DNA of 64,000 nucleotides, from NCBI GenBank assembly GCA_003584625.1, contig AP017647.1, positions 1,412,603-1,476,602 on the forward strand, in the 5' to 3' direction. The notes beneath the pieces were generated by a model. It was not told where the DNA came from, made no database searches, and saw only the letters and a program-made list of their open reading frames with translations. This DNA is from Methanothermobacter sp. MT-2. Lineage in GTDB: Archaea; Methanobacteriota; Methanobacteria; Methanobacteriales; DSM-23052. Shown piece after piece: positions 37,035 to 52,999 of the stretch (positions within the stretch are counted from its first letter, which is position 1; the number at the start of each line of letters is the position of its first letter). A program made the position numbers and the translations under genes.

Positions 37035-37144
37035 AATTAGGAGAGTTCCAGAAAAATTTAATTATTTTTCACATCTATATCCTTATTTTGCTTGTCAACC
37101 CCCAAAAATAGAGGATACACATGGGGGAAACTTGGATAGTTAAA

Positions 37145-37345
37145 TTTAAATATCACATTTTAGATAGATTCCTTTTGTAGCTCTGCTCCCTAACGAGAGT
37201 AGCATAGGATACAAGGGGTTCCGAGCCAAGAGGGGAGTATGATTCCATGGGCGTAAAGCCATGGTGGTGAACTCCTCAACTCTGTAAGATTCCATGTTGG
37301 AAACCTCACGTGTAAGCATGGGGGGAGACCAACCCCTCATAGAGG
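37145..37345 (+). ncRNA. Structured RNA family, copy A
   Basis: TATA box TTTAAATA (37145-37152) implies a start near 37172. Elements shared with copies B and C: CCCTAA-GAGAGTAGCAT (from 37188), GGGGAGTATGA (37232-37242), and TTCCATGTTGG (37290-37300). Predicted helices: P1 AGGGGTT (37214-37220)/AACCCCT (37331-37337); P2 GAGGGG (37230-37235)/CTCCTC (37273-37278) with a GU pair; P2a CCATGG/CCATGG (37245-37250/37259-37264); P3 TTCC/GGAA (37290-37293/37299-37302). No open frame fits. It precedes the sequon-rich small protein gene. I do not recognise the family. Confidence 0.7.
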
Positions 37346-37411
37346 TCCATTATATTTTTCAACCAATTAATGAAAATTTATAGGATGAAAAGGACAAAGG
37401 GAGGTGTTTAC

Positions 37412-37717
37412 ATGGATAAATTAACAATTATAATCCTACTAGCTATAATAGCAGTTAGTGGGGTTGCAGCAGGTTACCATTATTACGGGGGAGAAAAACT
37501 ACAATCACAGACACAGTTAAAGATCCAAAATCAAACGAAACTTCAAAATCAGACACAAATAAGAAACCAGACACGATACATGAACCAAAGTTGTCTCTCA
37601 GTTGACCAGTTAAACAGCGCAAATGGGAATCTAATACAATATCAAGATCAGAACATGTTCAGTGGCGGGTCACTACATCAAGAACAAAATAGGAACAGAA
37701 TCAGGAATAAAACATAG
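37412..37717 (+). CDS. Small membrane-anchored, glycosylation-sequon-rich protein
   Basis: A 101-residue protein from ATG 37412 (GGAGGTG is 6-12 bases upstream; a start at 37370 would lack a site). Residues about 3-22 (KLTIIILLAIIAVSGVAAGY) are a signal-anchor helix. The exposed remainder has NQT three times, one NQS and one NKT, the N-x-S/T sites used by archaeal oligosaccharyltransferase, within a Gln/Asn-rich, near-repeat sequence. I do not recognise a family. Probably an extracellular glycoprotein-like peptide. Preceded by RNA copy A. Confidence 0.65.
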   Translation: MDKLTIIILLAIIAVSGVAAGYHYYGGEKLQSQTQLKIQNQTKLQNQTQIRNQTRYMNQSCLSVDQLNSANGNLIQYQDQNMFSGGSLHQEQNRNRIRNKT

Positions 37718-37812
37718 AAAGTAACATTCGATGGAAGACTTTTGGCGTCATCAGCCCAAGAAGAGAAATTCTGGGGGAAAGTTCTTATAAATTAAATTAT
37801 GATCCCCTCAGA

Positions 37813-39594
37813 TTATTCAATTTTAAGGTAATAATATTCTCCGATTTCTTTTTGTTTACGATCAAGGAAACTATTGATTTTGTTCACCCTGGGCCTTCTT
37901 GTTTCTTTATCTCTTCTGAATGTTATCCCCACTTGGGATAAGAACTTGTTCATGGCTCTTCGAAGTTCTGTCGGGCTTGTAGCATATCCTTCTATACCTG
38001 GCATGCCATAAAATACCATGGCTCTATCTGATATATAATCAAGGAATATTATATCATGGTCTATTATGATGGCAGAAGAGTCCCTACCTTCTATTATTTT
38101 TCTCATGGCTTTAGCTGTCATCAATCTTTGTTCAACATCTAGGAATGCTGTGGGTTCATCGAAAACGTAAAGATCGGCTTCCATTGAAAGTGTGGTGGCG
38201 ATGGATAGTCTTTGAAGTTCGCCTCCGCTGAGCTCTTCAACCTTTTTATCCTCTAATTCTTCGAGGGAAAATGGCCTTGCAATTTCGCTTTTAAATATTT
38301 TAGTCCCGTATCCTTGTGCATTTAAATGTAGGAATTCTCTAACAGTGCCCTTGAAATTGGATTTTAGGTATTGTGGTTTATAGGCTACTTTGAGTTTCTT
38401 TTTAATTTTGCCATTATCTGGTTTTTCTTCTCCGGCTAGGATTTTTGCAAAGGTTGTTTTACCTATACCATTTGGTCCGAATGCGGTTACTATCTCCTTT
38501 AGGTATACTTTACCTTCTTCGACGTTTAATTGGAAACCTTTATACTTTTTGGTTAATTTTGTGTATTCTGTGAGTGTTTCGCCCTCCTCTTCTGGGGTGG
38601 GTGGTTTTATTTTAAATTGGATTTCGCCTTTTCTAAATCTGACATTTTCTTCCCTTAAGAAACCTTTTATGTAGGCATTTATACCGACCCTCACACCTCT
38701 TCTCTTTGATACGACTCCATAAGCCCCCGGCTTACCATAGAGCACGTGAACGTAATCTGAGAGCGCGTCAAGGGCTGCTAGGTCATGTTCTATCACCATA
38801 ACTGCTTTGCCCTCTTCCTGGAGAGATCTTATCACTTTAACGGCATTTAGTCTCTGTTTAACATCTAACCAAGATGTTGGCTCATCAAAATAATAGAAAT
38901 CAGCATCTCTAAGGGCTGCTGCGGCTATAGCTATGCTCTGGAGTTCTCCCCCGCTTAAATTTTTAATATCCCTTTTTAGTATGGGTTGGAGTTCAAGTGT
39001 TTCAATTATAAAATCTAATTTGCCACGTTCATCAATCCTTGAAAGGAGTTCATACACTTTACCCTTCACATATTCAGGGATGAGGTCTATTATCTGGGGT
39101 TTATGAACTGCCTTTAATTTACCTGCTGAAAGTTTCTTAAAATATTCCTGTAACTGCGAGCCCCTGAAAAAGCGTGTTATCTCATCCCATCCTGGTGGGT
39201 TTTCATAATCTCCAAGATTAGGTTTTAATTCACCTGACAAAATACGGCTTATAGTCGATTTACCTATCCCATTGGGTCCTATAAGTCCAACCACGTCACC
39301 TTGACTGATAACTGGTAATCCGAAAAGTTCAAACATGTTCTCCCCATAACGATGAACAGGATCCTCAAGGGCCTCTGGTAGATTTATTATACTTATAGCA
39401 TTAAAAGGGCACCTATTAGTACATATACCGCAACCAGAACATAATTCTTCTGATATCACCGGCTTTTTCGTTTTTTCGTTAACGGTTATCGTGTCTTCAC
39501 CCATTCTGACACCTGGACAATATTCAATACATAGATAATTACATTTTTTTGGCTGGCACCGGTCATGATCCAAAATAGCAATCCTAGTCATCAA
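37813..39594 (-). CDS. ABCE1/RLI ribosome recycling ATPase
   Basis: A 593-residue protein. An N-terminal di-cluster ferredoxin part ([15 protein letters not shown] and [12 protein letters not shown]) is followed by two ABC domains. NBD1: [16 protein letters not shown] and [13 protein letters not shown]2: [18 protein letters not shown] and [10 protein letters not shown]. It splits 70S ribosomes after termination. The promoter is on the minus strand at about 39683-39693 (CTTTAAATACC). Confidence 0.95.
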
Positions 39595-39787
39595 ATCACC
39601 CTTTAGGAAAACAGTGAAAAGGTTAAACTTTAAATTGGCTCCGGTGAATTACCCTTCTTATTCCGGAAGGTGGACCCCCCCAAAGGTATTTAAAGGTATA
39701 GGCTCCCAGATTTAAGATACTATTTCCTTCTAAAAAAAATTTCATTCCCATAAAAAAAGGAAAATAAATATATAAAAATTGATATAA

Positions 39788-40000
39788 TTAAAGTTCTTTC
39801 TTTTTAAATGCCAAATCTATGTCCTCTGCTTTAACGGTCTTTCTACCAGCGTGTTTTGCTAGTTTAACAGCTTCTTCTGCTATTTCTTCGCCTATTTCTT
39901 CTAGGGCTTTTGCTAGTGCTTCCCTTGCATCATCACTTATTCTTTGCGCACCGGCATTTTTTATGATTCTTCCAACTGGTGCTATTGGTAATTCACCCAT
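39788..40000 (-). CDS. Archaeal histone
   Basis: A 70-residue histone-fold protein ([20 protein letters not shown], then helices ending in [14 protein letters not shown]), similar to HMfA/HMtA/HMtB. It wraps DNA as dimers and longer stacks. GAGGTGAT precedes the ATG, and ATTTAAATAC (about 40035-40044, minus strand) is a promoter. It is transcribed away from pth2. A T-run near 39753-39759 on the minus strand ends it. Confidence 0.95.
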
Positions 40001-40233
40001 AATATCACCTCATTTTTATCTTCAAATCTCTAGTATTTAAATTTATCGTTTTTTTCCCCATTTTTGTGACCAATATCCCATTTGTAAATATGAGAACCAC
40101 ACTAAAGACAACAATAGAACTTTGAAAAATTTTTCGTACCATCAAGATACTCCCATAAAGTTTCACACAATATAATAACCTATATACCCCATACCATAAT
40201 AAGATAAAAAAAACTAAAGGGTGAGACCCCCAG

Positions 40234-40572
40234 ATGAAACAAGCCATTATAATCCGCACCGACCTTAAAATGGGAAAAGGTAAACTCGCAGCCCAAGCCT
40301 GCCACGCATCCATCGAATCATACAAAAGAACACCTAAAGAGAAAATAAAAAAATGGGAAAAAGAAGGTTCAAAAAAGATAATCCTAAAAGTGAAAAACCT
40401 AGAAGAACTCATAAAAGTATACGAAACAGCAAAAAAGAAAAAAATCCCCCACTACCTTGTACGCGATGCAGGACACACACAACTACCCCCAGGTACAATA
40501 ACAGCCCTCGGAATAGGCCCAGACAACGATAAAAAAATAGATAAAATAACAGGCCACCTAAAACTATTATAA
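40234..40572 (+). CDS. pth2: Peptidyl-tRNA hydrolase Pth2
   Basis: A 112-residue Pth2-type enzyme. [20 protein letters not shown] (residues 2-21), HASIES (about 25-30) and [12 protein letters not shown] (about 82-93) are the catalytic-site segments. It frees tRNAs from stalled peptidyl-tRNA. First in a likely operon with the mfnE-like gene, the zinc-ribbon protein and EF-1beta. Confidence 0.95.
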
Positions 40573-40643
40573 AACCCAAAAAAATAACATAGGGACCTTT
40601 AAAAAATGATTTTCATCAACACAACACCAAGGAAGTGCCAATA

Positions 40644-41288
40644 ATGGAATGGACAGTTAAAATAGGAGGCAGTTTATTCCCCCACCACGCAAAAAAACTC
40701 CTAGAAAACCTATCAAACGAAGACGTCATCATCATACCTGGAGGTGGAGAATTCGCAGATAAAATAAGAGAATACGACAAAAAAATCGGACTTTCAGACA
40801 CTGCTAACCACGAAGCGGCAATACTATCAATGGATATAATGGGCATACTCCTAGCAGACCTTGTGAAAAGGGCTGAAACAACCCACACAATCAAAGGCGC
40901 CCGAAAAATAAAAAAAGATGGTAAAATCCCCATCCTACTACCATCAAGAATACTACATTACCTAGACCCCCTCAAACACTCATGGAAAGTAACATCAGAC
41001 TCCATCGCATTTTACATATCAAAACTCATAAATGCAAAACTATTAATAGCAACAGACGTAGATGGTATATACACAACAAAACCCACAAAAAAAGGGGCTA
41101 AACTTATAAATGAAATAACTGCTAAAAAGTTACTAACTTTTGGCGAAACCGCAGTGGATGAAGAACTACCAAAACTACTACTAAAATACAAATCTGATTG
41201 TTACATAGCCAATGGAAAGCATCCACAACGGATTCTTTCTATCATAAGATCCACTGACACCATACATACAAAGATAAGAGGTGATTAA
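40644..41288 (+). CDS. mfnE: Amino-acid-kinase family protein, MfnE-like (methanofuran synthesis)
   Basis: A 214-residue AAK-fold kinase: VKIGGSLFP (about residues 5-13), IIPGGGEFAD (about 34-43) and LIATDVDGIYT (about 135-145). MfnE phosphorylates the aminomethylfuran phosphate to the diphosphate in methanofuran synthesis; this small form and its presence in a methanogen support the call, though a general carbamate/glutamate kinase cannot be ruled out. ATG 40644 has GGAAGTG in place; a longer GTG start at 40635 lies within that site. Confidence 0.72.
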   Translation: MEWTVKIGGSLFPHHAKKLLENLSNEDVIIIPGGGEFADKIREYDKKIGLSDTANHEAAILSMDIMGILLADLVKRAETTHTIKGARKIKKDGKIPILLPSRILHYLDPLKHSWKVTSDSIAFYISKLINAKLLIATDVDGIYTTKPTKKGAKLINEITAKKLLTFGETAVDEELPKLLLKYKSDCYIANGKHPQRILSIIRSTDTIHTKIRGD

Positions 41289-41450
41289 ATGGCCAAAATA
41301 AGATGCACATCATGCAAACAAGAAATACCACCAGTTGAAAGTTATGTCAAATTCGAATGCCCATTCTGCGAAGAAATAATATACAGATGCGAAAAATGCC
41401 GAACCTTCGGCCACCCATACAAGTCTAAATGCGGATTCGAAGGCCCGTAA
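41289..41450 (+). CDS. Small zinc-ribbon protein (HVO_2753-like)
   Basis: A 53-residue protein with four CxxC-like pairs: CTSCK, CPFCEE, CEKC and a final Cys in SKCGFEGP. It matches the archaeal HVO_2753-type small zinc-finger proteins, function unknown. The ATG follows the mfnE stop directly. It sits between mfnE and EF-1beta, an arrangement that supports joint expression. Too short for most gene finders. Confidence 0.8.
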
Positions 41451-41472
41451 ATTTAACATTGGAGGATTTAAT

Positions 41473-41742
41473 ATGGGAGAAGTTCTAGCCACAATCAAGA
41501 TAATGCCAGAAAGTCCAGAAATAGACATGTCAAAACTAAAAAATGAAATCCAATCATCCATCCCCAAAAGCGCCGAACTATATAAAATAGAAGAGGAACC
41601 AGTAGCATTTGGCCTCATAGCCCTTAAAATAATGGTTATTGTAGATGACGCGGCCGGGGGAACAGAAAACGTCGAAAAAAACTTATCAAAAATTGAAGGT
41701 GTAAGCAATATCGAAGTGACTGATCTTCGACGTTTAATCTAA
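41473..41742 (+). CDS. ef1b: Elongation factor 1-beta (aEF-1B)
   Basis: An 89-residue protein with the guanine-exchange fold for EF-1alpha: VLATIKIMPESPEIDM (residues 4-19), ELYKIEEEPVAFGLIALKIM (about 36-55) and IVDDAAGGTENVE (about 57-69). GGAGGAT precedes the ATG. A decayed second copy exists at 43548-43767 beyond the MFS gene, so only this copy is functional. Confidence 0.93.
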   Translation: MGEVLATIKIMPESPEIDMSKLKNEIQSSIPKSAELYKIEEEPVAFGLIALKIMVIVDDAAGGTENVEKNLSKIEGVSNIEVTDLRRLI

Positions 41743-41804
41743 ACATCCGCTATCCTATTTTAAAAAACATTCTTATTTATATCATGTGTGGGGGGGTTAA
41801 TAAT

Positions 41805-43340
41805 ATGCCTAGTGGCCAGTATAAATGGGGGGCAGTTTTAGTTGCCTGTTTGGCAATTTTCATCATAGTTTTAGATACATCAGCAATGAATGTGGCAATA
41901 ACCACACTAGTTGTGGAGCTAAATACTACATTGTCAACAATTCAGTCCATAATCGCTTTATATGCATTAATAATAGCCTCATTCATGTTATTAGGGAGCA
42001 AACTTCAAGATATCCTTGGCAGAAAAAAGACATTTTTAGTGGGATTGATCATTTATGCTTGTGGAACGAGCATCGCTACTTTAAGTATCAATGCAGGGAT
42101 GCTCATGATAGGATGGGCCATTTTAGAGGGTGTTGGCGCGGCTTTGATGTTCCCAGCGACCACAACCCTTGTGGGCGCTAGTTATGAGGGTGAAGATAAA
42201 GTTACTGCTTTTGGAATTTGGGGTGGTATAGCAGCCATGGGCGCGGCCATAGGCCCTATAATAGGGGGAATTTTCACGACATACTTTACTTGGAGGCTAG
42301 TGTTTGCATTTGAACTCATTTTTGTAGCATTAATTTTAATTTTCAAGGACTATTTAACGGAATCTGAACCAACTTTGAAATGGAAGGATTTAGACATATT
42401 AGGCGCCATTATTTCCACAGTATCCCTAGTATTAATTGTTATGGGGATTTTACTCCTTTCAAAACCGCGAAACTGGGAATATGTCCCGGTTTTACTAGTC
42501 TCTGGTTCTATTCTCTTTGTTGTCTTTTTATGGTGGCAGAGAAGAAGGCTTAACCAAGGTTTAGAACCGTTATCTGATGTATCTCTCTTTAGGAATCGTC
42601 TGTTTGGATTAGGTACTATTAATTCCATAATACAACAAATACCCTTAGCAGGTTTTCTTTTCATCATACCAGTTTTCCTGCAACAGATTACCAAACTCAA
42701 TGCATTTGATACTGGGCTGACTCTTCTACCAGCATCCATCTCTATCCTCATGTTTTCAATTTTAGGGGCGAGATTCTCAACAATTTTAGATTCCAAACAT
42801 ATTATGATGATTGGTTTTCTTATTTCTGCACTGGGAACATTCCTACTGGGAGGGGTGTTTAACTTAAACACTCAAATGATGGACATTATACCATCGACTA
42901 TTGTCTTTGGTGTGGGAATCGGCCTTTTACTTTCACAATTAACCAACCTTACCATGTCAGCTGTCAGGAGCGAACAAGAAACAGATGCCTCAAGTTTACT
43001 TAATTCATTTAAAAATCTAGGTTATTCACTAGGAACGGCTTTGATAGGAGTTTTACTTTTAATAGGAATTTTCAATGGACTTACAACTGGAATAGAAGCA
43101 ACTGGCCAGACTGGAAACATGACTACACAGGAAATTCGGGATAGTCTTTTTGAATATGTAGAAAAGATGCAGACTGGACCACCTCCACAAATATCGCCAC
43201 AAATACAACCTTATGCAACTGAAATTGTGGATCTATCTATTAGTTCTGCAATGAGGCAAACATTTAACGTATTGTCTTTGATTCTCCTCTTAGGATTCAT
43301 ACTAAGCATTTTCTTACCAAGAAAATCTAAATTGGGATGA
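41805..43340 (+). CDS. MFS drug-exporter-like transporter (EmrB/DHA2 type)
   Basis: A 511-residue membrane protein with about 14 helices, the DHA2/EmrB size. The early motif LDTSAMNVAI (about 23-32) is that family's motif D1, and LGSKLQDILGRKKTF (about 65-79) is MFS motif A. Substrate unknown. ATG 41805 follows a G7-TT site. The gene lies between an intact EF-1beta gene and its broken copy, indicating insertion with duplication, possibly by horizontal transfer (inference). Confidence 0.85.
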   Translation: MPSGQYKWGAVLVACLAIFIIVLDTSAMNVAITTLVVELNTTLSTIQSIIALYALIIASFMLLGSKLQDILGRKKTFLVGLIIYACGTSIATLSINAGMLMIGWAILEGVGAALMFPATTTLVGASYEGEDKVTAFGIWGGIAAMGAAIGPIIGGIFTTYFTWRLVFAFELIFVALILIFKDYLTESEPTLKWKDLDILGAIISTVSLVLIVMGILLLSKPRNWEYVPVLLVSGSILFVVFLWWQRRRLNQGLEPLSDVSLFRNRLFGLGTINSIIQQIPLAGFLFIIPVFLQQITKLNAFDTGLTLLPASISILMFSILGARFSTILDSKHIMMIGFLISALGTFLLGGVFNLNTQMMDIIPSTIVFGVGIGLLLSQLTNLTMSAVRSEQETDASSLLNSFKNLGYSLGTALIGVLLLIGIFNGLTTGIEATGQTGNMTTQEIRDSLFEYVEKMQTGPPPQISPQIQPYATEIVDLSISSAMRQTFNVLSLILLLGFILSIFLPRKSKLG

Positions 43341-43547
43341 AGAATAAAAAAGAAGGAAATAAATAGTACGTCAATAACCCCTTTTTTTATATTGACAATC
43401 TTTAATGGTATTTCTGTGAGATTTTTTTATCGGAGGTTTTTTTATCCTGCGAAAAACGTCACCAGAGAAATTCCCAATCCATGATATTCGAAAACCACAT
43501 AAAATATAAATAATAATAATAATGTTGAATATAATATTATGTCTGGG
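43341..43547 (+). other. Spacer after the MFS gene with T-tracts
   Basis: Three plus-strand T-runs (about 43382-43389, 43423-43429 and 43438-43444) probably end the MFS transcript. The A/T-rich remainder contains no supported gene. The EF-1beta duplicate begins at its 3' end. Confidence 0.4.
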
Positions 43548-43767
43548 AGTTGATATGGGGAAAGTTCTCGCCACAATCAAGATAATGCCAGAAACCCCCC
43601 CAAAATAGGAACGCCAAAACTAAAAAATAGAAGAGGAGCTTGTAACATTCGGCCTCATAGCCCTCAATGTAATGGTTGTCGTAGATGACGCGGCCGGGGG
43701 AACAGAAAACATTGAAAGCTTATCAAAAATTGAAGTTGTGAAATGGCTAATCTTCAATGTTGAAAAG
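43548..43767 (+). pseudogene. Decayed duplicate of EF-1beta
   Basis: From the ribosome-binding site and ATG 43555 the sequence tracks the intact gene at 41460-41742: GTTCTCGCCACAATCAAGAT, then TAG at 43606 after an indel in a C7 run. About 60 bases equivalent to the middle are missing, and GATGACGCGGCCGGGGGAAC and AAAATTGAAG resume. The remains run into the TctA-like gene in frame. It cannot make EF-1beta. Confidence 0.88.
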
Positions 43768-43770
43768 TTG

Positions 43771-45012
43771 GTGGTTGAAATTTTCGATTTCATCCTCGCC
43801 TGCTTTCTAGGGATTATCTGCGGTACAATAACAGGTATTATACCTGGTATCCATGTTAATACCGTAGGTGCATTCGTATTCGCTGCCACTCCCTTCCTTC
43901 TCAAGTTTTTCTCCCCTGAATTTTTAGCTGTTTTCCTGCTTTCAATGTCTATTGCCCATGCACTCCTAGAATTCATACCATCCATGCTCCTAGGCGTACC
44001 AGATGAATCAACAGCATTATCCATCCTTCCAGGCCATAGGATGATATTGGAAGGGCAAGGTAGAAAGGCCATAAGACTAACAGCCATTGGAGGGCTTGGA
44101 GGCATAATATTCACAGTATTATCCCTACCCTTATCCATAATTTTCCTACCTCCAACATATAATCTGATAAGACCATATATAGGACTATTACTCCTTATAG
44201 TGTCAATTTACCTTATAATAAGCTTGAATAAGAATTTAGAGGCTACTATATGGTCCCTTGTAATATTCATCCTTTCAGGGATCCTAGGATGGGTTATGTT
44301 AAATACTCCGCTTTCATCAAATATCTCTCTATTATGTACCTTCAGCGGCCTATTTGGTGTGAGCACATTAATTCACAGCCTAGGTAAACACTCGATTTTA
44401 CCCAGCCAATATACTGTGAAGGAAATTAGAATCGATACTAGGATTATAAGAGGAATCCTTGGAGGAGGAGTTGCAGGAACCCTATTAGGGTTTCTCCCAG
44501 GTTTTGGACCGGCGCAGGGCAGTATACTGGCCCAGGAAATCAGTGGTGGGAGTGATGATAGGATAGAGAACCTTTTAACATCTCTCAGCGCCTTGAACAC
44601 TTCAGATGCTCTTTTTTCACTTATGACAATATATCTCATGGGAAATGCTCGCAGTGGCATAGCAGTCTACATTTTGAAGATAATAGAAAATTTCAGTTTA
44701 AATTATCTCATATTTTTTAGTTTTGCATCTTTATTATCAGTTGCAGCATCTTTTATCCTGTGCATAAAATTGGGGGATTTTCTGGTTGATCGTCTACAAT
44801 ACCTAGATTACAATAAGCTTTCCAAACTGGTAATATTTTTTATAAGCTGCCTAGTGGTGATATTCTCCCTATGGGAAAATGCACCAGTCCATTTCATCTT
44901 ACTTGCCTATGTAACATCCATCGCCGTTGGTTTGATACCACATTATATTGGTGTGAGTAAATCTTATTTGATGGGAGTCCTTATAATACCCGCCCTGGCC
45001 ATCTATCTTTAG
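43771..45012 (+). CDS. TctA-family (DUF112) membrane protein
   Basis: About 413 residues with roughly 10-12 membrane helices and the signature GTITGIIPGIHVNTVG (about residues 15-30), plus LLGFLPGFGPAQGSILAQEI, matching the TctA/COG1784 group. Relatives form the large subunit of tricarboxylate transporters; the archaeal ones often lack TctB/TctC, so the substrate is unknown. A longer frame from 43672 begins with EF-1beta pseudogene sequence (MVVVDDAAGGTEN), so I start at GTG 43771; the ribosome-binding site is weak. Confidence 0.72.
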   Translation: MVEIFDFILACFLGIICGTITGIIPGIHVNTVGAFVFAATPFLLKFFSPEFLAVFLLSMSIAHALLEFIPSMLLGVPDESTALSILPGHRMILEGQGRKAIRLTAIGGLGGIIFTVLSLPLSIIFLPPTYNLIRPYIGLLLLIVSIYLIISLNKNLEATIWSLVIFILSGILGWVMLNTPLSSNISLLCTFSGLFGVSTLIHSLGKHSILPSQYTVKEIRIDTRIIRGILGGGVAGTLLGFLPGFGPAQGSILAQEISGGSDDRIENLLTSLSALNTSDALFSLMTIYLMGNARSGIAVYILKIIENFSLNYLIFFSFASLLSVAASFILCIKLGDFLVDRLQYLDYNKLSKLVIFFISCLVVIFSLWENAPVHFILLAYVTSIAVGLIPHYIGVSKSYLMGVLIIPALAIYL

Positions 45013-45962
45013 CAGATTAAAATTATTTCCTTGGCAAGCTTTCTAGAAGTTTTAACGAAAGGTGTGGTATCAACATTTGGGAATGGATCTATGATACAAA
45101 GATCATATTTTTCATCAATGAGTGAAGGCAGATCCCTTATATCTTCATTGTACACCTCAAATTTCTCATCTGCAAGTTTAAATCCATTCACTTCCAAATT
45201 TATAATGGTTGTTTTTATGCTTTCAGTCCATATATCATTGAATATTACCTTATCGGCGCCTGTGAAGAGTGAGAATAATCCGAGGGTTCCAGGGCCGCAT
45301 GTAGCATCTATAACCTTAAATGGACCTTTAAATTTTCTCAGGATATTATAGAGATTCATGATCTTTGAATATGAAGATCCTAGGGATTCGATGTGCATCC
45401 TACTCTGTCTTTTATAAATGCATAAGGCCCCCCTTGGACTTTTTATGATGTCGCAGCGCATATCACATCCGGCTAATTTCTCATATACGATTGGTTTATG
45501 ATCTGAGTCAAGCATGCCTACTGTCTTCCCTGGATCGCCTTTGATAACCCCTTTAACTTCTGGCACTTCCCCGATTATCTGTTTAGCTGTTTTTTTATCC
45601 AGTTTATCAGATAATATTAATAGGGATTTTGATGGTAGAAATGGTGCTCTTGAAAGAGGATAGCCTATGGTCATGAGTGGAGTGCCAACGTTTCTTAGAC
45701 TTGATTCTTTATCTAGTAGTCCTTTGTCAACCATTATACTCAGAATATGCCCCATTGTGGAGTCAAGGTGCCTTTTACCACACTCACATCTACCCCAGTC
45801 TCTATCAATGGATTTCAAGTTTAATTGATCCCCTAGTGGGGTTCTTTTATCTATGTGAGGATCATGGCAATTTTTACATCCATTATAAAAATATTGGATC
45901 TTTTCTAACAAAGATCGCCTATCTATTATGCACTTTTCCCCACATTCACACCTTAATCCCAT
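45009..45962 (-). CDS. SAM-dependent methyltransferase-like protein with N-terminal Cys pairs
   Basis: About 317 residues. N-terminal CECGEKC, CKNC and CECG pairs form zinc-ribbon-like segments. KVIDATCGPGTLGLFSLF (about residues 219-236) is the SAM-binding motif I, and CIIDPFPN near 298 resembles motif IV. The fold hints at RNA or protein methylation (a Trm5-like likeness), but the target is not readable. ATG 45962 (MGLRCEC) is chosen; an earlier ATG at 45986 overlaps the TATA box of the divergent gene. Confidence 0.6.
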   Translation of the reverse strand: MGLRCECGEKCIIDRRSLLEKIQYFYNGCKNCHDPHIDKRTPLGDQLNLKSIDRDWGRCECGKRHLDSTMGHILSIMVDKGLLDKESSLRNVGTPLMTIGYPLSRAPFLPSKSLLILSDKLDKKTAKQIIGEVPEVKGVIKGDPGKTVGMLDSDHKPIVYEKLAGCDMRCDIIKSPRGALCIYKRQSRMHIESLGSSYSKIMNLYNILRKFKGPFKVIDATCGPGTLGLFSLFTGADKVIFNDIWTESIKTTIINLEVNGFKLADEKFEVYNEDIRDLPSLIDEKYDLCIIDPFPNVDTTPFVKTSRKLAKEIILIC

Positions 45963-45997
45963 ATAAAATTTAAATATAATGTTCATTATATTAAAAG

Positions 45998-47563
45998 ATG
46001 ATTCTCATGAAGGATAAAAGGAAAGCCATCCTAAAGGAAATCCTGGGAGATTTCGCTTCTGAAAACTCTGAATCTGAGGGAAGACTTGAATCAAAGGATG
46101 AGAGCAGTTTTGATATATCCAAGATAATTAAGAAAAGACCCCCAAAACTTGGAGCAGATGTTGAAGAAGTCGAAATCGTCGAAGAAGAACTAATACCACT
46201 ATACAGGGTTTCCATCCCCAGATTCACTGAAAAAGAAAGGGAACTTATAAACGAGATAAGGGCAAAGCTCGTTGAAGCCGCTGTAAGTGCGGGTGGCGAA
46301 TTTAAAGTTGATAAAAAAACCCTTATGAAAGAGGTTAAAGATTTCCTCAGAATAAAAGGAGTTCGCGATATTGACAGACTCGCCAAGCAAATCATACAAG
46401 AAATGCTAGGCTATGGGGAAATCGACCCCCTCATAAGAGATGATAACCTCGAAGAAATAATGATAATCGGCGTGAAAAAACCAGTTTTTGTCTACCACAG
46501 AGAAAAAGGCATGATGATCACAAACCTCGTATTCGATGACGCGAACAACATAAAAGCCCTAATCGATTTAATCGCAAGACAGGTAGGCCGCCGCATAGAC
46601 CAACAAACACCCATACTCGACGCAAGATTACCAGACGGATCAAGGGTCAACGCAACCATACCCCCAGTCTCCCCAGATGGCCCCACCCTAACAGTGCGTA
46701 AATTCAGAAAAGATCCCTACACCATCATAGATCTTATAAATTTCAAGACAATGTCATCTTACCTTGCAGCCTTCCTTTGGGTGTGTACAGATGGCCTCGG
46801 AGCCAAACCATGCAACGCAATAATCGCCGGTGGTACAAGCTCTGGTAAAACAACAACCTTGAATACAATAGCAGCATTCATACCACCCCGCGAACGTGTT
46901 ATCACAATCGAAGACACCCTAGAACTCCAACTCCCACACCCACATATTCTAAGGTTGGAAACAAGACCCCCAAACATAGAGGGAAAAGGCGAAATTGACA
47001 TGGACACCCTAGTCAAAAACTCCCTACGTCAAAGACCAGACCGGATAATAGTAGGGGAAGTGAGGGGGCCAGAAGCCATAACATTATTCACAGCCTTGAA
47101 CACTGGACATTCAGGGTTCGGCACATTACACTCCAACACCGCACGTGAAACAATCACAAGACTTACAAACCGTCCAATGAATGTGCCAAATATTATGATA
47201 CCCGCACTAGACTTCATTATAATGCAGAATAGGATGTACAGTTCATCTGGCCATTCAATAAGACGCATAACCGAAGTAGCCGAAGTTGTGGGGATGGAAG
47301 AAGACAAAGTCCAATTAAACAGGATATTTGAATGGGATAACGTCACCGACAAAGTGGAATACGTGGGTATAGCAAGCCAAACACTAAGAGAAATAGCAGA
47401 AATGCGAGGTATAAACATAACAGAGATAGAAGAAGAAATCGAGAAAAGAAGACTAGTCCTAGAGTACATGGCCGACGAAAACATAAGATCTATAGATGAA
47501 GTAGCTAAATATATACATAGTTATTATAAGAATCCTGAGGAAATCTTGGAGCAAATACTCTAA
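45998..47563 (+). CDS. Type II/IV secretion-like ATPase (TadA/CpaF-like)
   Basis: A 521-residue secretion ATPase. [17 protein letters not shown] (about residues 274-290) is Walker [16 protein letters not shown] (about 304-318) holds the Asp box; [15 protein letters not shown] (about 346-360) contains the Walker B and His-box area. Such proteins power type IV pilus or archaellum assembly. TATA TTTAAATATA lies about 25-30 bases before ATG 45998, so the gene may be leaderless; an ATG at 46007 is an alternative. No pilin genes are near, only tadC. Confidence 0.85.
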
Positions 47564-47596
47564 AGTCCCCCGAATATAAAAGAGGGGATGTCCACA

Positions 47597-48655
47597 ATGG
47601 TTTTAAAAAAAATTTTTGAAAAACTCGGCAGCCTAACAATAGATGCGGGTAAAAAGGTGGAAGAGGGGGTTAAAGTCCCCGCCACGAAACTAAACATTGT
47701 CAAGCCTTCATTCACTAGTAAAATGCCATCAATCCCTGGTAAAATTGATTTTAGGAGGACTATAAAGCGTAGAAGCACATCCGTGATCTTGGAACGGATG
47801 AAGATGACCCCAGAGGAGATAGAAATATTCAAGGATCTTATCGAAGCCGATAAACGTCGCGAGGAAAAGGAAAAAGAAAGTGAAGAGAAGTATATGGAAG
47901 CTTCACTCGAGGAAATATTAAAGGAGAGAGAGAAAAGGAGACTCGAACCTAAACTGGTAATGACATTAGGAGGCATTTCCGGCTTCTTACTATTATTGAT
48001 AACAGTTATATTAGGTTTTGGCTTAGATATTGGGCTTATATTAATGTTCTCAGTAATTTCCCTATCTATACTCTTAATGTTCGCGCCAGAATTACAAAAG
48101 GGGAGAAGATCTTCAGAAGCGGCACGTCAACTACCATTTGCTCTGAGGCAAATGGCAACAGAACTTAGAGCAGGACTAGGACTCCATGATACCATGCGCT
48201 CAGTAGCAATGTCAGGGTATGGGGCGTTATCCCAAGAATTCGCAAGGACTCTGGAAGAAATAAGGTATGGTGAAACCACAGAAAATGCTTTAAAGGAAAT
48301 GTGTAACCGTGTGAACTCAGAAGGTTTGGATAGGGCTATTTATCAGATTACAAGGACTCTAGAGAGTGGGGGGGACCTAGCTAAAACCCTTAACATTATA
48401 GCAGAGGATGTGGCCTATGAGATGAGAATGAAACTTAGAGATTATTCCCAGAAGCTTAACTCTTTTACCATGATATACATGTTCATCGCCATCCTAGGAC
48501 CAGTTATATTCCTAGTAATGTTACTTGCAGCCACCACAGTCATGGAAAGGTCAGTTTTACCCCCAATTGCCATACTGTTATTATATCTATTATTATTCCC
48601 AGCGATAGTAGGGTTCATGGCCTTCATGATAAAAAGACTTGAACCAAAATTATAA
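47597..48655 (+). CDS. Type II secretion F-domain membrane protein (TadC-like)
   Basis: About 352 residues. The N-terminal ~115 are charged and soluble; membrane helices occur near 120-165 and 290-345, flanking the T2SSF domain (LPFALRQMATELRAGLGLHD). It is the platform protein for the ATPase encoded just upstream. ATG 47597 is preferred because GAGGGGATG serves as its site. The two genes form a minimal assembly module without obvious pilins. Confidence 0.82.
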   Translation: MVLKKIFEKLGSLTIDAGKKVEEGVKVPATKLNIVKPSFTSKMPSIPGKIDFRRTIKRRSTSVILERMKMTPEEIEIFKDLIEADKRREEKEKESEEKYMEASLEEILKEREKRRLEPKLVMTLGGISGFLLLLITVILGFGLDIGLILMFSVISLSILLMFAPELQKGRRSSEAARQLPFALRQMATELRAGLGLHDTMRSVAMSGYGALSQEFARTLEEIRYGETTENALKEMCNRVNSEGLDRAIYQITRTLESGGDLAKTLNIIAEDVAYEMRMKLRDYSQKLNSFTMIYMFIAILGPVIFLVMLLAATTVMERSVLPPIAILLLYLLLFPAIVGFMAFMIKRLEPKL

Positions 48656-48770
48656 ATTACGACCCAAAGGGAATTCCAAGTGGACTTGTAGCCCAATAAG
48701 CTTCTCTTTTCCTTTTATAAATTGGGTGCAGGTATATAATCTAAAATATGGATAACCGTTCAGTTAATAA
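48656..48770 (+). other. Spacer between tadC and the mer promoter
   Basis: No gene is supported. GTATATAATC (about 48731-48740) is TATA-like and may be an extra promoter element. Otherwise A/T-rich. Confidence 0.3.
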
Positions 48771-50024
<1,254 letters not shown>

Positions 50025-50046
50025 AACAACCCCCAACCTTTTCTAA

Positions 50047-50070
50047 TTTTTTTACAAAAACTTTTTTTTT
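50047..50070 (+). terminator. Oligo-T terminator after mer
   Basis: T7 at 50047-50053 and T9 at 50062-50070 follow the mer stop by about 22 bases. These plus-strand runs are good archaeal termination sites and separate mer from the RNA gene downstream. Confidence 0.55.
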
Positions 50071-50122
50071 ATCTAAATTCTGCAAGAAGACCCTCCCATA
50101 GAGAGGGGGATAATTGTAAAGC

Positions 50123-50290
50123 CTTAAATACTGCCTTCCACATACACCCTTTTCTAGACCATACCTTAAAGAGAGTAGCATGGAATACTGGGCCCCAAGC
50201 GAGAAAGGGGATATGAATGTAAAAGTCTTGGGTTCAAACCCCGCAAGCCTCCATGTTGAAGAAGTCTCCACGCGTGGGGAGGGTCACTCT
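50123..50290 (+). ncRNA. Structured RNA family, copy B
   Basis: TATA box CTTAAATACT (50123-50132) implies a start near 50152, the same spacing to the conserved CCTTAAA-GAGAGTAGCATGG (from 50164) as in copies A and C. P1 GGCCC (50191-50195) pairs with GGGTC (50281-50285); P2 GGGG (50207-50210)/CCCC (50239-50242); the CCATGTTG loop is at 50250-50257; CTCC...GGGGAG closes P4. Its internal hairpin is shorter than in A and C. It lies between mer and the RaSEA gene. A G/C inverted repeat (50091-50110) precedes the TATA. Confidence 0.7.
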
Positions 50291-50347
50291 AAAATATAAA
50301 TAATCTTTAGACAAAATGATTATAAATAGAAGTTTTAAAAGGGGAAA

Positions 50348-51415
50348 ATGATAAGAGAATTAGCACTGAAAACTAGGAAAAAGGCCATCAAAAGGATTAG
50401 AAGAAGATCACCAGAAGAGTTAGCGACGAGCTGGTGCCAAGACGACTTGCTCTATTCGGGAAAAGGCAAATCCATTTTCATGATACTCCCCACCAAGGGG
50501 TGCTCATGGGCATTATCAGAAAGTGGTGGTTGCACCATGTGCAGCTACCTCTCAGATTCACTACTTGAAGATATCAAATCCGAAAAACTAAACCAGATAT
50601 TCAAGGATCTAATATCAAAATATAAGATAAAAGAGAAAACCGCGGTTAAAATATTCATCTCAGGCAGCTTCCTAAACCCAGAAGAATTCCCAGAAGAATC
50701 CAGAAAATTCATACTAGAATATCTTGATAAAATCGACAAAATAGAAGAAATAATCATAGAATCCCGACCAGAATACATAAACAAAGAAACACTCATTGAA
50801 TGTTGCAAACAAGCACCCAACAAAATCATAGAAGTTAGCATAGGACTCGAAACAGCAGACGATTACACCCGCAAATTCAAAATAAACAAAGGATTCACAA
50901 AAAAAGACTTCGAAAAAGCCATAAAAACCATAAGAGGTCTTAAAAAAGACTTCAGGATAAAATCAAAAGCCTATATCCTTGTAAAACCAATCCTAACATC
51001 AGAAAAAGAAGCCATCCAAGATTCAGTTGAATCTGCGATTTACGCAGAAAAAATAGGGGTGGACAGAATATCATTCTGCCCCTCAACCATCCACAAAGGC
51101 ACAATAATGGAAGAACTCTGGAAAAAAGGCTCATACAAACCCCCATGGATATGGAGCCTAATCGAGATAATAAACCGCACCCGAAAAACCCTAAAAATAC
51201 CCACAATAATGGACACCTCAGGACTAGGAACACCAAGAGGCCCATACAATTGCAAAAAATGTAACATGAAACTTAAAAAAATGATAATAGAATCCAACCT
51301 AACCCAAAAAACCATACCATGGATAAAATGCGACTGTTACAAAAATTGGATTGCCGAAAAAGAACTTGGAGATTTCGTAAGATCATCCAACACCATCAAA
51401 TATCAAATATACTAA
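50348..51415 (+). CDS. Archaeosine synthase radical SAM subunit RaSEA
   Basis: 355 residues. The radical SAM cluster motif is in CSWALSESGGCTMCSY (about residues 57-72), which differs from the plain CxxxCxxC spacing, as is characteristic of this family. Further Cys pairs (CKKCNMK and a late CDCYKNW) lie near the end. RaSEA cleaves the lysine adduct made by ArcS (12816-13733) to form the archaeosine formamidine on tRNA G15. ATG 50348 follows AAAAGGGG. It lies between RNA copies B and C. Confidence 0.85.
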   Translation: MIRELALKTRKKAIKRIRRRSPEELATSWCQDDLLYSGKGKSIFMILPTKGCSWALSESGGCTMCSYLSDSLLEDIKSEKLNQIFKDLISKYKIKEKTAVKIFISGSFLNPEEFPEESRKFILEYLDKIDKIEEIIIESRPEYINKETLIECCKQAPNKIIEVSIGLETADDYTRKFKINKGFTKKDFEKAIKTIRGLKKDFRIKSKAYILVKPILTSEKEAIQDSVESAIYAEKIGVDRISFCPSTIHKGTIMEELWKKGSYKPPWIWSLIEIINRTRKTLKIPTIMDTSGLGTPRGPYNCKKCNMKLKKMIIESNLTQKTIPWIKCDCYKNWIAEKELGDFVRSSNTIKYQIY

Positions 51416-51508
51416 GAACACGAAACAGATTAAACTTTTCATGCAAAATCTTATTGCTTGTAAGACCCCCCACACCTTGAAAGGGAGGTATACAATGAGA
51501 TAAGTAAA

Positions 51509-51694
51509 TCTAAATACTATTTTTTTCATAGAGTTTTTTACAGCCCACACCCTAAGAGGTATAGTATGCAGGGCCTAGTGACCGTCCAGAGGGGAGTATG
51601 AACCCATAGGTATGAAGCTGGATGAACCCCCTCAACTTTGCAAGCTTCCATGTTGGGAAGCTCCATGTGTAAACGTGAAGAGGAGGTCACTCTA
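51509..51694 (+). ncRNA. Structured RNA family, copy C
   Basis: TATA box TCTAAATACT (51509-51518) implies a start near 51540. Helices: P1 GTGACC (51578-51583)/GGTCAC (51685-51690); P2 GAGGGG (51589-51594)/CCCCTC (51628-51633); P3 AGCTTCC (51643-51649)/GGAAGCT (51656-51662) around the conserved ATGTTG loop; P4 CTCC/GGAG. Conserved GGGGAGTATGAA is at 51591-51602. An upstream TTGCTTGT (51454-51461) matches copy A at 37088. It sits directly before the nucleotidyltransferase gene. Confidence 0.7.
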
Positions 51695-51712
51695 CAAAAT
51701 TTAGGGGAGTTT

Positions 51713-52999
51713 ATGATTGGTATAAGCGCAGATTTCGACCCACTACATAAAGGACATGTGAAACTCATAGAAAAAGGACGCGAAATAGCGGGAAAAACCG
51801 GGAAAAAACTCGTTATATACCTTAACAAAGATTATAGCGCCAACCACGCCCCATTCTTCGCATCATATGATGCACGTAAGAAAATGGCGCTTAAAGCGGG
51901 TGCTGACAAGGTTATACCAATTGAAGGTCTGCACTACAGACTGACCTTAGCATACACAGTGCCTATAAGGATAGCTATGATGATAGAAGATGGTATCACA
52001 GATTACGTGGATGCAGCGAATGTATCACCACACTTCATAAAAAAAGAGGCGGAATACTTCGCGAAAAGAGGCATATTCAGCGGCATACCATCAAATCTCC
52101 CAAACAGGAACGTTATAAGATGGTTCGCTGTTAATGAATTTTTCCAAGGAAAATATAAACGTAAAATGAAATTTCACATAATCCCAGAACTCACAGAAAA
52201 CGGTTCAAAAATTTCCGGCAGAGAAATAAGAAAAAAAATAATAGAAAACAACCTAGAAATACCCGAAGACGTGGCTAAACTTCTACCTGAAACCACCACA
52301 AAAATCCTCGAAAAGGAACTCAAAAAAGGTAGAGCACCAAGTAAAAGAAACCTTAATCTAATAAAGGATAAGATGAACAGACTTTCACGAGCAGACCTCC
52401 TAGAGATAGCCTACCTCAATGCCAACCTCATAAACTCCATGATCAAATGGAGACCCCATCATACAGAAAACCAGATATGGGCAACTTTCAGAAAAGCCGG
52501 GTACGGTCCAGTGCTAACAAGACTAGCAATGAGCTCAATGGAAATGAACGTCACAAGAAAAGAAGTCTATGACCTCATAGGATACTATGAAAAAAAAGGA
52601 TGGATACCACCAGACCAGAAAAGGAAAAAGATAATCCAAAGAGCCTGGTTCATATCAAAAAACATAAAAAAAGGTTACACTTCAAAAGAAGCCCACAAAA
52701 AATTCCTAGAAGGCCACATACCATCCGAAGAGCCTGAAAGATCCCTTAATGCAGGGTTGAGCTTAAGAAAATTTGAAACAAGAAAATTAAGGGAAGGAAC
52801 AAAGGCCAAGATATATGTGAAGGAAGATGGTGTTATCTCTTGCCAGATAAAAGACGATATTAAAATTAAAAGTCCACTGATCCTTCCAGGTGCAATGGCA
52901 ACTTACCTCCGCCTAATAATAGATTCACATATCATACCATTCAACAGCCGACTCATCAAAAAAGATGAAAGTTTCAGGATCCAGATAAACATCGGATAA
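51713..52999 (+). CDS. HIGH-superfamily nucleotidyltransferase-like protein
   Basis: About 428 residues. DFDPLHKGHVKLI (about residues 7-19) is the H-x-G-H nucleotidyltransferase motif, and SGREIRKKI near 170 resembles the second (ISSTxxR-like) site. It resembles the TmcAL-type tRNA-modification ligases of bacteria (HIGH_NTase1), but the roughly 200 residues at the C-terminus differ and the substrate is unknown. ATG 51713 with GGGGAG upstream is the start; a frame extended to 51638 would cross the RNA gene. Preceded by RNA copy C. Confidence 0.6.
   Translation: MIGISADFDPLHKGHVKLIEKGREIAGKTGKKLVIYLNKDYSANHAPFFASYDARKKMALKAGADKVIPIEGLHYRLTLAYTVPIRIAMMIEDGITDYVDAANVSPHFIKKEAEYFAKRGIFSGIPSNLPNRNVIRWFAVNEFFQGKYKRKMKFHIIPELTENGSKISGREIRKKIIENNLEIPEDVAKLLPETTTKILEKELKKGRAPSKRNLNLIKDKMNRLSRADLLEIAYLNANLINSMIKWRPHHTENQIWATFRKAGYGPVLTRLAMSSMEMNVTRKEVYDLIGYYEKKGWIPPDQKRKKIIQRAWFISKNIKKGYTSKEAHKKFLEGHIPSEEPERSLNAGLSLRKFETRKLREGTKAKIYVKEDGVISCQIKDDIKIKSPLILPGAMATYLRLIIDSHIIPFNSRLIKKDESFRIQINIG

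Follow-up and report, generated by a model that had tools for sequence, protein, structure and literature searches.

The 64,000-nucleotide stretch of the Methanothermobacter sp. MT-2 genome analysed here (GenBank assembly GCA_003584625.1, contig AP017647.1, positions 1,412,603 to 1,476,602 of the forward strand; hereafter the window) contains three copies of a small mobile DNA element of IS200/IS605 type, all on the plus strand: copy A at 37087-37333, copy B at 50073-50287 and copy C at 51455-51690. With a probability of about 75%, we read these loci as non-autonomous, PATE-like IS200/IS605 elements carrying a promoter-driven, predicted omegaRNA-like RNA, for which the DNA flanking the right end would serve as guide. 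A first-pass annotation had described the same loci as a functional RNA family. Structured RNA was a fair description, and what had been overlooked is that the loci are multi-copy mobile DNA; an unexplained RNA family becomes a mobile element that is guide-RNA-like and has precise borders. Since non-autonomous IS605 elements are already known (PMC3119063), what appears to be new is the combination of a PATE-like IS605 derivative with a promoter-driven, putatively omegaRNA-like RNA, along with the number of copies and a nuclease that has apparently been lost.

Copies, empty sites and insertion target

A pattern taken from the block CCATGTTGRRRAA, followed by inspection of its matches, gave seven copies in the 1.52 Mb genome under study (G000), which we compared with three congeneric sister genomes (G001, G002 and G003). 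From these seven copies we built a sequence-only model (R1), and for the whole element a second sequence-only model (R2). R1 gave 22 matches at E<1 in G000, one of which lies on the opposite strand within another copy, leaving 21 places, 19 of them with E<5e-4; the window copies, all three of which are training sequences, scored 93.4 (A, matched at 37178-37329), 59.4 (B) and 80.4 bits (C). One extra, partial copy, picked up by a profile of the small elements, lies near a tnpB relic (L061:6980-7093). Where the first-pass annotation saw three copies and looked ahead to further homologues, there are thus 21 places and one partial copy in this genome, together with two copies in G001; R1 found none in G002 or G003, and R2 agrees. 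Across 150 genomes of the order, R2 gave no convincing copy beyond the genus members G000 and G001. Weak R2 matches outside the genus (E 0.002-0.01 in the same 150 genomes) were taken as chance.

The elements are interspersed and measure about 215-275 bp, which is too short for a transposase, and no match to PF07282, PF01797 or PF01385 was found at any copy. The earlier statement that no open frame runs through the loci needs qualifying, since mechanical frames overlap B (50008-50271, minus strand) and C (51638 onward, plus strand), although none of them resembles an element gene. Several copies (L043, L046, L049 and L050) have internal deletions. Some adjoin tRNA genes: one copy is truncated just ahead of two tRNA genes (L040:1501-1795), and a G001 copy sits after an apparent tRNA gene (L054:1-320).

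We searched the sister genomes with the joined flanks of eight copies outside the window; for six of these the flanks matched as a single uninterrupted stretch, each in one to three sisters. Three of the junctions are sharp: L043 reads GGACACCAATTTAT/element/AGGATATCTTTT where the sisters read CACCACCTAT/AGGATAT, L038 reads CTATTAT/element/TTTATCTGACATGG where a sister reads GATATTAT/TTTATCCGACATGG, and L046 reads CTTTTAT/element/CTTTTGTGCC where a sister reads TCTTTAT/CTTCTCTTGTACC. At these junctions the element thus directly follows T(T)TAT on the 3' side, and its flanks are unduplicated. T(T)TAT adjoins most copies; in the window, TTAT (37083-37086) directly precedes A, TTTAT (50068-50072) precedes B and CTTAT precedes C. 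The joined flanks of copy B are continuous in all three sisters, with just ~100 bp between two genes in G001. In the case of copy A, nothing in the three sisters matches the right flank. Downstream of A, a small open reading frame at 37412-37717 encodes an N-terminal hydrophobic stretch and then a Gln/Asn-rich part, with no Pfam match, and the flank that holds its start likewise finds no match in the three sisters.

The empty sites also bear on whether these loci could be an RNA family of the host, regulatory or structural, that was duplicated for a cellular job. Their own promoters, a structured RNA and the lack of a coding region would all suit such a family, and later co-option of some copies is possible. 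Yet precise empty sites in the sisters largely refute it, and the family is absent from two of the three congeners, is dispersed in a random-looking manner and includes deletion derivatives. We regard the host-RNA explanation as very improbable and dropped it on the empty-site evidence in favour of a mobile element.

The RNA segment, its promoter and its hairpins

Although homology between the loci had previously been placed as beginning at the RNA, a MAFFT alignment of the three window loci remains alignable well past that point, into a common TATA-like stretch, and similarity runs ~75-90 bp further upstream, through the TATA box and a left-end hairpin. Read from the left, the aligned copies show TTTATC, sometimes in variant form, then a short spacer and a hairpin of the form TTGTAAGACCCC..GAAAGGG..GGTATACAAT..GGGG (37099-37127 in A, where it reads CCCCC...GGGGG; 50091-50109 in B; 51466-51488 in C). 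This is followed, in most copies, by an archaeal TATA box (TTTAAATA at 37145-37152 in A, TTAAATAC at 50124-50131 in B and TCTAAATAC at 51509-51517 in C), by ~20-25 bp and then by a 5' hairpin built on the pattern GTAGCCCAC...GGTGTGGG (37184-37204 in A; 50159-50183 in B, with a CCAT/ATGG base; 51544-51573 in C, where it is weak). On the 3' side of this come a variable middle, GTGAAGCC, a conserved core GTGAACTCCTCAACTTTGCAAAGTTTCATGTTGGGAAGCCCC, a right-end hairpin that frequently has a GTAA-type loop (37304-37325, 50266-50281 and 51661-51683, respectively) and the terminus GGTCAC, past which similarity among the copies stops. Copy B ends in GGGTCAC and copy C in GGTCAC; the terminus of copy A is degenerate (GACCAAC for GGTCAC), and its right border can be placed only to within a few bases. 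There are hairpins near both ends, and terminal inverted repeats are absent, the left end (C.../TTGCTTG) not being the reverse complement of GGTCAC.

The predicted omegaRNA-like RNAs, placed by the R1 match and the alignment, and in copy A with a start deduced from the spacing of the TATA box, would span 37174-37333 in A, 50153-50287 in B and 51540-51690 in C. Across the family the segment is structured, ~130-165 nt long, and ends exactly at the right end of the element (GTCAC). In 12 of 20 copies, the interval -45 to -15 holds a TATA box matching at 7 or more of 8 positions, as against 6% in shuffled sequence. Identity per alignment column peaks in the core, at 0.75, and falls to its minimum of 0.49 in the left spacer.

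To assess pairing we used an alignment-free cognate-arm test, in which the 5' arm of each copy is paired either with its own 3' arm or with those of other copies. The 5' hairpin pairs better with its own partner (p=0.017, 20 copies), and so does the right-end hairpin at its tip (16 copies, p=0.001, or 0.016 once near-duplicates are removed), for which the p-value is indicative only, since the arms were picked by eye after a rule-based choice, with some arms mis-anchored, had given p=0.29. The blocks and helices quoted in the first-pass annotation are all present letter for letter, and its claim of a structured RNA with compensatory change holds for these two hairpins. The main helix that it proposed is not one of them: cognate arms of the outer helix (P1) pair no better than swapped arms (p=0.27, 20 copies), and the AACCCCT arm in copy A (37331-37337) falls on, or outside, the right-hand limit of homology. 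P2 failed the same test (p=0.39, 20 copies), as did an alternative GTGAACTCCTC/GAGGAGGTCAC helix. RNAalifold, applied to a MAFFT alignment of 15 copies, returned zero consensus pairs, and it was for this reason that R1 and R2 were built from sequence only. These data support the presence of a promoter and of an RNA segment that ends at the right border and has two conserved hairpins.

The same data speak to the possibility that the copies are plain IS605-type PATE fossils, in which only the DNA ends mattered and the middle is a leftover promoter and RNA segment with no guide function. The PATEs of Haloquadratum persist with no assigned RNA role beside pseudogene IS200-type transposases (PMC3119063), and here too intact TnpB is absent from G000 and several copies are internally deleted. 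However, it is the internal RNA core and not the left end that is most conserved, most copies retain the TATA box, and the 5' hairpin, which is distant from both DNA ends, covaries. We therefore consider such fossils unlikely and favour elements in which the RNA segment itself would have had a guide-like role.

Relation to IS200/IS605 elements and proposed mechanism

IS200/IS605 ("peel-and-paste") elements characteristically insert 3' of a short motif without target duplication and have a hairpin close to each end. We assign the family to this group because it inserts 3' of T(T)TAT without duplication, has near-terminal hairpins and resembles a tnpA-tnpB element at its left end. That element, at L062:4080-5322 in G001, is a whole IS200/IS605 element with decayed tnpA and tnpB. 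A profile made from the small elements and excluding the G001 element matches the latter at its left end, immediately ahead of tnpA (E=0.003), and 7 of 20 copies align to this left end with p<=0.007. The two can be aligned base by base (ATCATTTG-TAAGACCCC--CTGAAAAGGGA-AGTATACA against ATCAGCTGCTAAGTCCCCTTCTG-AAAGGGAGGGGATACA), along the shared pattern TAAGNCCCC..CTG.AAAGGGA..GNATACA..GGG..GTGG. They also share GGGAAGCYCCATNNGTAAA and a TTCAC-type terminus at the right end, where the similarity is weaker than at the left (GGGAAGCTCCATGTGTAAA against GGGAAGCCCCATCCGTAAA, p=0.007; three copies with p<=0.017). Unlike the small elements, the G001 element has decayed tnpA and tnpB genes, and its internal RNA is not clearly similar to theirs.

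Mobility and a non-coding RNA are likewise joined in IS110 bridge RNAs, IS607, group II introns and retrons, and the loci might in principle derive from a mobile RNA element of that kind. The T(T)TAT insertion without duplication, the two near-terminal hairpins and the similarity of the left end to that of a tnpA(Y1)-tnpB element make this scarcely credible. A search of the window against Rfam at the gathering threshold found a tRNA and nothing else, the IS110, IS607 and retron families not having been searched directly.

Traces of the C-terminal part of TnpB (PF07282, Zn-ribbon) occur in G000 and G001 and not in G002 or G003, so that TnpB traces and RNA elements have the same distribution among the four genomes. 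TnpA (PF01797), in decayed form, and the PF01385 part of TnpB were found in G001 only. The tnpB of G000 is a degraded C-terminal relic (L061:4200-5035, ~760.2-761.0 kb) with an IS605-like right end, in which a hairpin is followed by TAGTTGAC.

One of the closest likenesses among described elements is to the PATEs of Haloquadratum walsbyi, which are related to IS605, lack terminal repeats and duplications, and moved even though IS200-type transposases there are nearly all pseudogenes (PMC3119063). Our elements share with them near-terminal palindromes, the absence of terminal inverted repeats and of target duplication, a length too short for a transposase, IS605-related ends, heterogeneous copies and decayed resident transposases. 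They differ in carrying, in most copies, a TATA promoter inside the element together with a conserved RNA segment that reaches the right end, and in their host, which is a methanogen and not a haloarchaeon. For the RNA, the natural comparison is ISDra2, which inserts 3' of TTGAT without duplication and whose TnpB binds a ~150-nt right-end RNA with its final ~16 nt drawn from the flank (PMC8612924). Here too, a predicted structured RNA of ~150 nt ends at the right end, an AT-rich pentamer adjoins the insertion site and the flank could serve as a 16-nt guide. In contrast to the ISDra2 omegaRNA/reRNA, however, the segment lies outside any tnpB gene, has its own promoter and is found in a genome with no functional TnpB.

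On these grounds we infer that the element RNA is a putative TnpB omegaRNA with the flank as its guide, acting in trans. The in-element TATA promoter would transcribe a ~150-nt omegaRNA/reRNA scaffold containing the conserved 5' and right-end hairpins, transcription would read through the right end, and the first ~16 nt of the flank would become the guide; by the TnpB reRNA model (PMC8612924), the presumed guides are 50288-50303 for B and 51691-51706 for C, both on the plus strand. While TnpA and TnpB were available, TnpA would have peeled and pasted the element, and RNA-loaded TnpB would have cleaved the donor site left empty (T(T)TAT plus guide), with repair restoring the copy.

Several observations weigh against this interpretation. 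In G000 no TnpA was detected and no TnpB is intact, and the tnpB relic of this genome shows no significant similarity to the elements; the relic may therefore not be their parent. At the right end and in the RNA, the elements resemble a real tnpB element only weakly (p=0.007 at best), and the element profile had no match among the right ends of tnpB loci from other genera. The sites of copies C and L050 are not clean, the sisters carrying other intergenic DNA of ~150-260 bp there, although the C element itself is absent from them. Finally, the best match to a described RNA family, that of copy C to HgcC (RF00062), reaches 26.3 bits where the cut-off is 50.

Since no TnpA was detected and tnpB persists only as a C-terminal relic, the copies are probably orphaned guides now, and they may still be transcribed. 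Solo omegaRNAs exist. MT-2 would then offer a natural case of an IS605 lineage without detectable TnpA or intact TnpB in which ~21 copies of an RNA segment, most of them promoter-bearing, are left behind, raising the questions of whether solo omegaRNAs acted in trans to retain the element and of what becomes of guide RNAs after nuclease decay. That the orphan RNAs have survived because they were co-opted, whether by another effector, as regulators in trans or as mobile promoters for neighbouring genes such as that next to copy C, strikes us as a long shot.

HgcC and neighbouring genes

The first-pass annotation recognised no known family in these loci, and Rfam bears this out. In a relaxed search HgcC alone appeared, below threshold; its match to copy C is full-length and weak, and the other copies tested missed E<5, save for a very weak match to A (12.4 bits). 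A search for HgcC at E<=1e-6 across 152 genomes of the phylum returned zero matches. A further very weak HgcC match (12.8 bits) lies at genome positions 636381-636512 (L030), outside the element family. HgcC resembles the predicted element RNA in being a multi-copy archaeal RNA; the sub-threshold score of copy C sets the two apart. In Thermococcus kodakarensis, transposase genes give rise by transcription to three of the five HgcC RNAs that are expressed (PMC4247193). This transcription pattern would fit HgcC being itself omegaRNA-like, which we offer as a lead only, and our literature search found no paper naming HgcC together with TnpB. HgcC and other orphan archaeal RNAs present in many copies might be omegaRNAs.

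Element C, within the region 51416-51712, stops 22 bp short of the start of a HIGH-nucleotidyltransferase-like gene (51713-52999), upstream of which ~240 bp of intergenic DNA present in the sisters is missing. As this DNA has been lost, the promoter of element C may now drive the nucleotidyltransferase-like gene. At copy L041 (~379.6 kb), the left end of the element apparently overlaps the 3' end of a coding sequence and the joined site is open for 498 amino acids; here the element may supply the final codons of the overlapped gene.

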